From assembly GCA_019192545.1 (NCBI GenBank), contig JAHCMI010000034.1, positions 1 through 64,000 of the forward strand: DNA of 64,000 nucleotides. The letters are read 5' to 3'. The translations under genes and the position numbers were made by a program. A model generated the notes under the pieces. It made no database searches and was not told the DNA's origin. It saw only the letters and a list, made by a program, of their open reading frames with translations. Below are positions 52,328 to 56,336 of the stretch, in pieces; the stretch's first letter is position 1, and each line of letters opens with the position of its first letter. This DNA comes from Rivularia sp. MS3 (lineage in GTDB: Bacteria; Cyanobacteriota; Cyanobacteriia; Cyanobacteriales; Nostocaceae).

Positions 52328-52801
52328 AAATTATTTTTATCAAAGTCTAACTTTAAGATACCGCTTTTTTGTTCGGTATATGAGTCTGTACCTATTTTTG
52401 TTTGCGGTTCCAATTTAGTGTATTTTTGGTGTATGGCTGATGAAAAGCAGTAAAGCAGAAAGGAACCCGAACGATAAATTTGTAAGCTCAGAAGATATTG
52501 AGTAGCCTTTTTGTTAGGTATGGTCAATTTAGTCGTTTATTTTAGGATAATGGCAAACTATAGAAACTGCATTTATATTGAGTGTAAATTGGCTGCTTAG
52601 AGGATGGGCGGAAAAGTATAGTTTTTATCATAATTCTCGGATGATCCCCCTCTCCCCCCTATCCCCAGAGGGGGCCCCGAGTCCCCCCTTAAGAAGGGGG
52701 GTAAAAGTCCCCTAGTTTAGCGGGGGATTTAAGGGGATCTCAAAAGTTTCAAGTATCATTTATAGTGCATCATTACATCCTCTTAATTAAATTACAAACA
52801 A
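52328..52801. repeat. Spacer with C/G-rich hairpin cluster (52643-52739)
   Basis: 474 bases between divergent genes. The first 300 are plain, with no supported frame. At 52643-52739 lies a C/G-rich palindromic block: GATCCCCCTCTCCCC at one end, GGGGATTTAAGGGGATC at the other, and internal hairpins such as CCCCCCTTAAGAAGGGGGG. It is a common cyanobacterial intergenic element. Confidence 0.65.
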
Positions 52802-53620
52802 GTGAATATCAATAAATATAAATTATCTAGTTGGGTTTTAAGTTTAATTGCTGGAACTGTGGTTTTTTTATTGTGTTTTCAGGCACGGGTTAAAGCCGAT
52901 AATCCTAACGGTATCGATAATAAATCAGAGCCTGGTTGGAGTTTGTGGTTGGAAAAATATAAGGCGAAATATGCAGATTTTGAGGGAGCATCCCAATTTT
53001 GAACAAATATTTTACCCAACACCCTGGAAGGGTGGGGCTATATAAACAAAGCCCACCTTCGTGGGCTAAGAGGTTTCTAGCCCACGAAGGTGGGCTTTGT
53101 AATATTAGCCCCAGACTTATAGTCTGAGGGCTTTTTGCAAAATTGGGATGCTCCCGATTTTGATTCTGGTTTCTCGAATTTAGAATTAGGAGGATATCTT
53201 GAATTTGAAAATGCTTGTAAAACGTCTTCTGGGCTACCAGAATCTGAAATAGAATATTGGTTTAGATTAAGCAATCGGGTGAATCGTATCGGTACCGGAA
53301 AGGTTGAATACGCTTGCTGGAATGGAAAGCGTTTTTTACATACTCATGCGAGTACTGCGATTAAAAGCAGCGCGGGATTTGTTGATTGTCTGCGCGTTAA
53401 ATCTGCTGCTGGCGGCGTATTAATTATGTCTGAGCCAACAAATCAATCAACAATATTAAGAGTAATTGCTAATGGCAAAACTGTGAAGCCTAGTTATTCT
53501 CCGGCGATAATTAGCAATCAAGGCAATCGCATTTGGATTAGTTTAAGTTCCCCTGTGAAAGGATGGGTTTCTGATGGAGTTTTTTCTAGTAAAGGTAATT
53601 TAAGGTTGTGCAATTTATAG
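52802..53620 (+). pseudogene. Secreted SH3-like protein gene, broken by a MITE-like element
   Basis: The 5' part (52802-52983) encodes an N-terminal signal peptide (SSWVLSLIAGTVVFLLCFQA, cleavage near ARVKA-DN) and the start of a mature protein ending KYADF. The 3' part (from 53156) continues DSGFSNLELGG and runs to a stop at 53620; near the end it carries GNRIWISLSSPVKGWVSDG, as in bacterial SH3-like cell-wall domains. The 172-bp element plus one 8-bp target copy is 180 bp, so the frame is kept, but a TGA at 53000 stops translation. Removing the insert restores a 212-residue protein. The second part also opens with a TTG inside the element (53135). Function of the intact protein is unknown; a periplasmic or cell-wall role is likely. 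Confidence 0.82.
52984..53155. mobile_element. 172-bp MITE-like element with 18-bp ends and 8-bp target duplication
   Basis: Ends are the perfect inverted repeat GGGAGCATCCCAATTTTG and its complement (52984-53001, 53138-53155). The flanks are GATTTTGA on both sides (52976-52983, 53156-53163). No coding capacity. The interior has a perfect 23-bp palindrome (53046-53068 with 53078-53100) and a second hairpin with AGCCC-AGACT / AGTCT-GGGCTTTTT at 53107-53136. The mobilising transposase is not in this window. Confidence 0.88.
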
Positions 53621-54057
53621 TTGAAATATATCATATAATGGGTCTGAAAGTAATTCATAAAAATCGAATATTTCAGTTGTTTAAATCAGGCTGAAGAGAG
53701 ATAAATCTCGACTTATAAATATCTTTTCAGCAATTAAATTTCATATTAATATATAGCAATTTGATATGAGTTGTGAGAAAAATAAATTTCAGTAATCCGG
53801 TTTTTATCAAAAACCGAGTTTCTCAAATTTAAAAAATAATTTAGGAATGCAATAGCGTTTTAAAGATAATTATGCAATATATACATTTGTCGAATATTTT
53901 TATGCGAAAAGAAATAATTAACATCGCCTATTTGTTTGCCCTAGCGCTCGGTTAAAAGATAAAAATCCCGAGTAAAAAAAAGGTAAATACAATTTATCAA
54001 TCGAATCTACTCACAAAGCAAGATAAACTGGGATGGGAATTAATGATTTAATTCTTA
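53621..54057. other. Spacer upstream of the AbrB-type transporter
   Basis: 437 AT-rich bases; no gene, RNA or strong palindrome was found. Confidence 0.4.
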
Positions 54058-55859: not shown

Positions 55860-56055
55860 GCGATACATCAAAATCGACGCATCTCGCCAGAACCTTGAAA
55901 ACCCTATAACTTCGTTGAGATGCGTCGATAGCTTATGCAGCAAGGCTTTCAGACGACAAAATTGGCGATTTACTCGGAAAATTTTTCCATTTTTTCGAGA
56001 TGCGTCGATTGGGGTATTCCAAACCCCTGCTGTGTAAGGGTTCTAGAAGTGAACT
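55860..56055 (+). promoter_or_regulatory. Probable CRISPR leader with repeated GAGATGCGTCGAT motif
   Basis: The block just before the first CRISPR repeat has three copies of one 13-base motif: inverted at 55873-55885 (ATCGACGCATCTC), direct at 55917-55929 (GAGATGCGTCGAT) and direct at 55997-56009. It ends in TAAGGGTTCTAGAAGTGAACT before the repeat. Cyanobacterial CRISPR leaders have such conserved, motif-rich layouts. The leader role is inferred from position and orientation. Confidence 0.6.
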
Positions 56056-56159
56056 CTTTCCAAACCAACTCCCCTCAACGGGGATGGAAACTGCTAGCAA
56101 GATTCGTTCCTCTGATGGTTCTACTTTCCAAACCAACTCCCCTCAACGGGGATGGAAAC
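56056..56159 (+). CRISPR. Minimal CRISPR: two 36-nt repeats and one 32-nt spacer
   Basis: Two identical 36-nt repeats, CTTTCCAAACCAACTCCCCT then CAACGGGGATGGAAAC (56056-56091 and 56124-56159), flank a 32-nt spacer (56092-56123). The repeat has an internal stem (CCCC / GGGG) and the GGAAAC end that gives the crRNA 5' handle, the familiar cyanobacterial type I-D/III repeat class. So the array reads on the plus strand, from leader to the right. No cas gene is in this window. Confidence 0.88.
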
Positions 56160-56336
56160 ATTCAATCCCCAATGATGGGGATTTGGACACTGCTGTTGTG
56201 TTGTCGCATTAGCAAAGCGTGACGTTAGTCATAGCGCAACGCACCATTTCACAAGGTTTTCGGTGCGTTAGACTTGCGTCGTAACGCACCCTACTGGACT
56301 GACACGCTGTGCTAACAATTTTCAAATCGGATTTCT

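Follow-up and report, generated by a model that had tools for sequence, protein, structure and literature searches.

A MITE with ISKra4-type ends and a REP-like body in the gene for a putative secreted protein of Rivularia sp. MS3

Introduction

In the cyanobacterium Rivularia sp. MS3, a short gene that appears to encode a small secreted protein is divided into two parts by 172 bp of DNA. This raises the questions of what the inserted DNA is, what moved it and what became of the gene. The stretch analyzed here, referred to as the window, comprises 64,000 nucleotides (positions 1–64,000 of contig JAHCMI010000034.1, assembly GCA_019192545.1). A sequence-only reading of the window had taken the insert for a young, non-autonomous element, a MITE. 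Judging from the excerpts of PMC10969869, MITE-made gene loss is a known and ordinary process in cyanobacteria, and the insertional inactivation of microcystin genes in Anabaena is cited there. The present locus is like that case in that a MITE ends a gene; the gene is a different one, and the two are likened by their effect on the gene only. The interest of the locus beyond this known process lies in three points that the sequence-only reading did not contain: the composite body of the element, the apparent lack of its helper in the host assembly, and the fact that the gene was struck twice.

Results

The interrupted gene and its intact homologs

A base-by-base check places the broken gene on the forward strand, from a GTG start codon at 52802 to a TAG stop codon at 53618–53620. 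The 5′ part (52802–52983) runs from the GTG through a hydrophobic N-terminus to the residues KYADF and the left copy of the target sequence, and the 3′ part (53156–53620) runs from DSGFSNLEL to the TAG, with an SH3b-like C-terminus. When the element and one copy of GATTTTGA are removed by script, KYADF and DSGFSNLEL become contiguous in one frame of 212 codons plus a stop, the length that the sequence-only reading had given for the restored protein. The insert and the duplication together measure 180 bp as claimed, and the frame is kept. The same reading had placed "a stop" inside the insert; its presence holds, but not the count, since the in-frame stops are three (TGA at 53000, TAG at 53078, and TAG at 53120).

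The uninterrupted state of the locus is found in another genome of the genus (G006). The orthologue there is syntenic, with neighbors shared on both sides, and contains a single GATTTTGA and no insert; window positions 52808–52990 align with its residues 2–62. Across 211 aligned codons, the joined window gene is 86% identical in nucleotides to that of G006, with a dN of 0.093 and a dS of 0.43, that is, a dN/dS of about 0.21. This low ratio fits a gene that was under selection until recently, as a comparison of two sequences and therefore not polarized. Among seven other genomes of the genus that were searched, only G006 gave a match, so the gene is patchy in its distribution. With the G006 protein as the query, 30 genomes, the own one included, in a sample of 388 from the order matched at E ≤ 1e-8; G006 itself is absent from the rows of this sample, presumably because it was not drawn. 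Twenty homologous loci were tried, of which 19 have an ORF (L239 was left out as it has no usable one) and 18 span the site, and the insert is present at this place in none of the 18. Thus, the uninterrupted gene does exist in relatives, syntenically in G006 and also in all the more distant spanning homologs, and neither of the findings that would speak against an insertion, namely an insert shared with relatives or the lack of any intact homologue, was made. The Richelia intracellularis homologue (L150:3001-3456, 52% identity) has an open piece of just 104 aa and may therefore be broken too.

Inspection of the homologous proteins by eye reveals a hydrophobic N-terminus, four conserved cysteines, and an SH3b-like C-terminal part. 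The Pfam model SH3_3 scores above its cut-off in four of ten homologs, and below it in the window piece (E 0.14) and the G006 protein (E 0.13). Judged by eye, the broken gene would encode a small secreted SH3b-type protein, whose function was presumably lost through the insertion. A phage search with the gene region gave no match.

Anatomy of the element

The element occupies positions 52984–53155 on the forward strand. Its length of 172 bp, its 18-bp perfect inverted ends, and the 8-bp duplication around it, all as given in the earlier reading, were reproduced base by base. The left terminal inverted repeat (GGGAGCATCCCAATTTTG, 52984–53001, forward strand) and the right one (53138–53155, reverse strand) are perfect complements over exactly 18 bp. 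The copies of GATTTTGA that flank them lie at 52976–52983 and 53156–53163.

Between the ends, a small hairpin, CACCCTGGAAGGGTG, lies in an inverted REP-like unit (53020–53034). The central palindrome (53046–53100) has perfect 23-bp arms (53046–53068 with 53078–53100) and a 9-nt loop, and its arms carry compensatory changes among the copies of the element. A terminator-like hairpin, AGCCCCAGACTTATAGTCTGAGGGCT, in a REP-like unit (53107–53136, forward strand) is followed by TTTTT. The latter two structures had been noticed in the sequence-only reading, and both are as described there. As RNA, the element has a folding energy of −107.3 kcal/mol against a mean of −48.4 for shuffled sequences (z −15.3; none of 200 shuffles as low). 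A consensus scan of 52500–53700 gave five terminator-like sites against 1.3 expected from shuffles, three of which lie within the MITE or at its end. None of the listed ORFs of at least 50 aa lies wholly within the element. Rfam gave ten matches at E ≤ 1, all below their gathering scores, which we took as hairpin look-alikes and set aside.

The copy family and the age of the insertion

With up to two mismatches, the own genome contains the end sequence 31 times and a reversed control pattern not once. With up to one mismatch, it occurs in 26 of 41 genomes (own included), where the reversed control has one match overall. Within the own genome, the whole MITE as the query gave at least 74 matches (E ≤ 1), with the palindromic body counted on both strands; the number is a lower bound, as 40 of 80 first-look candidates were scored. 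The own loci that were fetched contain 15 distinct copies of 60–300 bp bearing both ends (≤2 mismatches in the first 12 bases and ≤7 in 18), two of which have another body. The target duplications of these copies agree at 8/8 positions in nine, 7/8 in four, 6/8 in one, and 4/8 in one, and the duplicated 8 bp vary in sequence. In a search of plasmids, only the body (37–148 of 172) was matched, on three Tolypothrix/Microchaete plasmids. By its sequence, the element would be classed as a MITE: it is short and non-coding, has terminal inverted repeats (TIRs) and a duplication of constant length, is multicopy, and has a counterpart with the same ends in an autonomous element elsewhere.

The nearest full-length copy is 92% identical to the window MITE. 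A shorter copy of 115 bp (C120:93426-93540, L006) with its own duplication (7/8) is identical to the window MITE at 115 of 115 bases; the central palindrome is lost from it by an exact 57-bp deletion between 5-bp repeats, GGGCT. Its flank has just a 50-bp match in G006, which is too short for comparison with an empty site. Since this copy is identical apart from the deletion, the lineage of the window MITE probably moved recently. The perfect ends and duplication, the 115/115 copy, and the low dN/dS together support the young age proposed earlier, for an insertion that is undated. Both further copies of the ends and an insertion sequence (IS) with the same ends, which that reading would lead one to expect, exist, and the latter is described below.

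The REP-like body

The interior of the MITE is an inverted dimer with 41-nt arms that are 83% complementary. The arm core occurs 25 times at 20 places in the own genome. A MITE-type end (0–2 mismatches in 12) is near at seven of these places, with both ends at five and one end only at C90:84k and C126. At the remaining 13, MITE-type ends are absent (3–6 mismatches, as in shuffled sequence). As the REP-like module is found free of these ends at most of its places (13 of 20), the MITE looks composite. Several free units read GTAGCCC...GAGGGC. Judged by eye, the GTAG tag is present in free units (L183, L253, and L254) and in the MITE copies at C97 and C153; the window copy reads TTAG and ATAG.

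A consensus structure was derived from ten copies, namely nine of the 15 and the copy at C90 (L193), leaving out L006, L013, L017, L021, L054, and L136, which have shorter or other bodies. In this structure, 96.6% of the cells pair and eight pairs changed on both sides. None of 500 shuffles reaches the observed percentage paired, number of both-side changes, or covariation score; 126 of 500 reach the observed value for further pair types, and the RNAalifold covariation term is slightly unfavorable (+1.57 kcal/mol). Since one alignment served both to derive and to score the structure, and since its copies are related to one another, these statistics are support for kept palindromes and not a probability.

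In L017 (1501–1662) and L021 (1501–1651), near-identical ends (1–3 mismatches) enclose unrelated palindromic bodies of the type TTGTCATTGCGAG.... Given these other bodies, the dimeric interior, and the free units, the most fitting description of the MITE is REP-like cargo enclosed by ISKra4-type ends. The copies L010 (1301–1518) and L197 contain a further nested repeat, GCGCCACTTGC...AACGCAGTGGC, next to their first hairpin. We suggest tentatively, and with some reserve, that ISKra4-type ends may act as a carrier for REPIN-like cargo, one transposase spreading palindromic repeats that occur alone elsewhere. The other bodies of L017 and L021, the loss of the palindrome in the C120 copy, and the nested repeats bear on this idea.

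A second MITE in the leader

The leader of the broken gene contains another, unrelated MITE of 183 bp (GAGGATG...CATCCTC, 52600–52782, forward strand), which lies between the upstream gene and the GTG and ends 19 bp before the start codon. It is flanked by TTA at 52597–52599 and 52783–52785. The element is absent from G006, and its joined site differs from the G006 sequence at one base, beside the TTA. Thirty loci of the family in the own genome were scanned, of which 21 gave a boundary pair and nine gave none of their own; an exact TNA duplication (TTA, TGA, or TAA) is found in 19 of the 21. Matching duplications are lacking in nine of the 28 boundary rows, seven of which are alternative boundaries of matching loci, the other two being L173 and L174. 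We take a TNA duplication to mark IS1031, which would make this an IS5/IS1031-type MITE. With one insert in the leader and one in the coding part, the gene has been hit by two unrelated MITEs, in an order that seems unreadable from the sequence.

The matching insertion sequence

In the genome of another species of the genus (G005), one pair of MITE-type ends lies 1768 bp apart and encloses a transposase of the ISKra4 family (NF033572, E 1.5e-80, 271 bits against a cut-off of 205). The ends of this IS are identical to those of the MITE at 17/18 and 18/18 positions, and at one side the identity runs on, the right terminal repeat of the MITE and its adjoining 5 bases matching the IS at 23 of 23 bases. 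Beyond the ends, the best match between the two elements is 11 bp (E 0.23). No ISKra4-type transposase was recognized by eye among the open frames at the lone end matches in G005 and G006 (L096–L104), which were dropped as autonomous partners. G005 and G009 contain many related end pairs that are unequal (AATTTTG on one side and AAATGTG on the other), like those of several of the 1.77-kb ISs described next.

With the G005 transposase as the query, relatives at E ≤ 1e-60 are found in 47 of 217 genomes of the family. Seven of the ten closest loci (L201–L210) have both ends about 1.77 kb apart. Exact 8-bp duplications flank four of these seven ISs and none flanks the other three, the G005 IS among them. 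In a sister group of 1.17-kb ISs (L211–L222, 12 loci), the duplication is 8 bp in nine, 9 bp in one, and absent in two. In a third group, with ends in TTTTT, it is 9 bp in L225, L229, L110, and, by eye, L109, and is absent in L227. In six of the seven 1.77-kb ISs, two transposase frames are joined by a −1 shift, and the seventh (L208) has internal stops. An A6 run, a candidate slippery site, is seen at the frame overlap in three of the six. After the transposase, five of the seven have an extra open frame of 144–163 codons, stop to stop (L095:1079-1510, L202, L205, L206, and L208); that of L095, the one examined, has no family match above cut-off. Because of this extra frame, we name the IS ISMich2-like and do not file it in the ISMich2 group.

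The own assembly, a draft of 174 contigs, gave no match to the G005 transposase at E ≤ 1e-3, and the ISKra4 family model found one distant member only (C164). The MITE looks orphaned, since no transposase of its subgroup was found in the host assembly, and the source of the transposase is accordingly deduced from the relatives. The helper IS appears to be missing from the host; in a draft of this kind, an overlooked IS is still possible.

Discussion

Origin of the broken gene

We conclude that, very probably, a non-autonomous element with ISKra4-family (ISMich2-like) ends split the secreted-protein gene with help in trans from a matching IS. This conclusion draws on features that can be read in the sequences themselves, namely the ends, the duplication, the empty site, the copy family, the matching IS, the 8-bp duplications of its relatives, and the stops. 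The element would have transposed into codons 59–61 of the SH3b-type protein gene, duplicating 8 bp, and would thereby have ended the reading frame after 66 codons, leaving the remainder of the gene stranded. Most likely, the element was moved in trans by the Mutator-type DDE transposase, encoded in two frames, of a 1.77-kb IS that shares its ends. The hairpins of the element may stop transcription. The REP-like dimer would have come into the element at some stage, by a way of entry that is conjectural, and the second MITE, of another type, has inserted 19 bp upstream of the start codon.

The source of the transposase might instead be sought in the own genome, in its one ISKra4-family IS (C164, L126, 1979 bp between the ends). 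This IS has an open frame of 476 aa and perfect 18-bp ends, GGGAGCAACGCGATTTTG, that are identical to the MITE ends at 15 of 18 positions, and an internal stretch of it, 17 bp long, shares 16 bases with the region of the MITE end (E 0.015). However, three of 18 end positions differ, the bases adjoining the ends do not match, the transposase is distant (67.7 bits against the cut-off of 205), and this IS copy has no target duplication, which together make it an improbable mover. It is even less probable that the element is not a TIR-type MITE but a REP or REPIN mobilized by a RAYT-type transposase. The occurrence of the body modules without TIRs at 13 of 20 places, several with the GTAG tag as in published REPs according to the excerpts of PMC3733652, is consistent with that idea, but duplications of 8 bp outside the TIRs are typical of a whole unit, TIRs included, that moved by DDE transposition.

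The fate of the gene can also be read in other ways. The leader MITE, which lies 19 bp upstream of the start codon between TTA duplicates and has no counterpart in G006, may have silenced the gene earlier, the coding insertion being a later, neutral hit. This course of events is compatible with transposition by an ISMich2-like IS as set out above, and we regard it as possible though rather unlikely. Since the coding parts carry no further lesion and compare with G006 at a dN/dS of about 0.21, any delay between the two hits was short. That the insert is tolerated or regulatory, with both halves still used through readthrough or a restart at TTG 53135, is hardly credible. The insert and its duplication are indeed a multiple of three in length and a TTG-led ORF of 161 aa lies downstream, but three stops stand in frame, a restart product would have no hydrophobic N-terminus, and the 18 spanning homologs have no insert at this place.

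Relation to known elements

The excerpts of PMC3942029 describe the ISMich2 group of the ISKra4 family as prokaryotic Mutator-like elements (p-MULT 4), with a −1 shift between two transposase frames and direct repeats of 8 or 9 bp. The IS matching our MITE is like this group in its 18-bp ends beginning with GGG, its 8-bp repeats (4/7), and its −1 shift (6/7). The window element differs from the group in having no transposase. Five of the seven 1.77-kb ISs also have a further open frame, whereas all TEs of the ISMich2 group are said in the same excerpts to be ISs. Nezha, for which ISNpu3-like elements are the proposed movers (Zhou 2008, via excerpts of PMC3049150 and PMC3733652), is likewise a cyanobacterial MITE with a proposed IS helper, and is set beside the window MITE by description only.

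According to excerpts of PMC3733652 and PMC3116915, the GTAG tag is a feature of published REPs, and in A. variabilis, GTAG-15 dimers lie inside longer palindromes. The body of the window MITE is similarly an inverted doublet of short palindromic modules, several free copies of which appear by eye to be GTAG-tagged. Unlike those REPs and REPINs, the doublet in the window is bounded by ISKra4-type TIRs, outside which stand 8-bp duplications. The titles and abstract openings in the open-licence PMC literature searched describe no REP-carrying ISKra4-type MITE, the excerpts of PMC2246112, PMC9679502, and PMC4369082 contain nothing decisive on such repeats, and the end sequence of the MITE matched, in the text covered, only a paper on a pig virus by its title.

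With its empty site, duplication, copy family, near-identical sister copy, and matching IS, the locus is an unusually complete case of gene loss through a MITE. Its composite body offers a concrete test of the exchange of parts between REP-like repeats and TIR-type MITEs in cyanobacteria, and also bears on the reason why the assembly retains the dependents of a helper transposase that it seems to lack.

Two further observations concern the surroundings of the gene. On its 3′ side (window 53627–53897), about 270 bp stand against about 113 bp in G006, which may reflect a third insertion or mere divergence. Farther downstream, at window 55935–56222, ORF translations such as FQTNSPQRGWK hint at a short repeat array of CRISPR type, and similar translations are also found near the MITE copy at C1:455k (L012).
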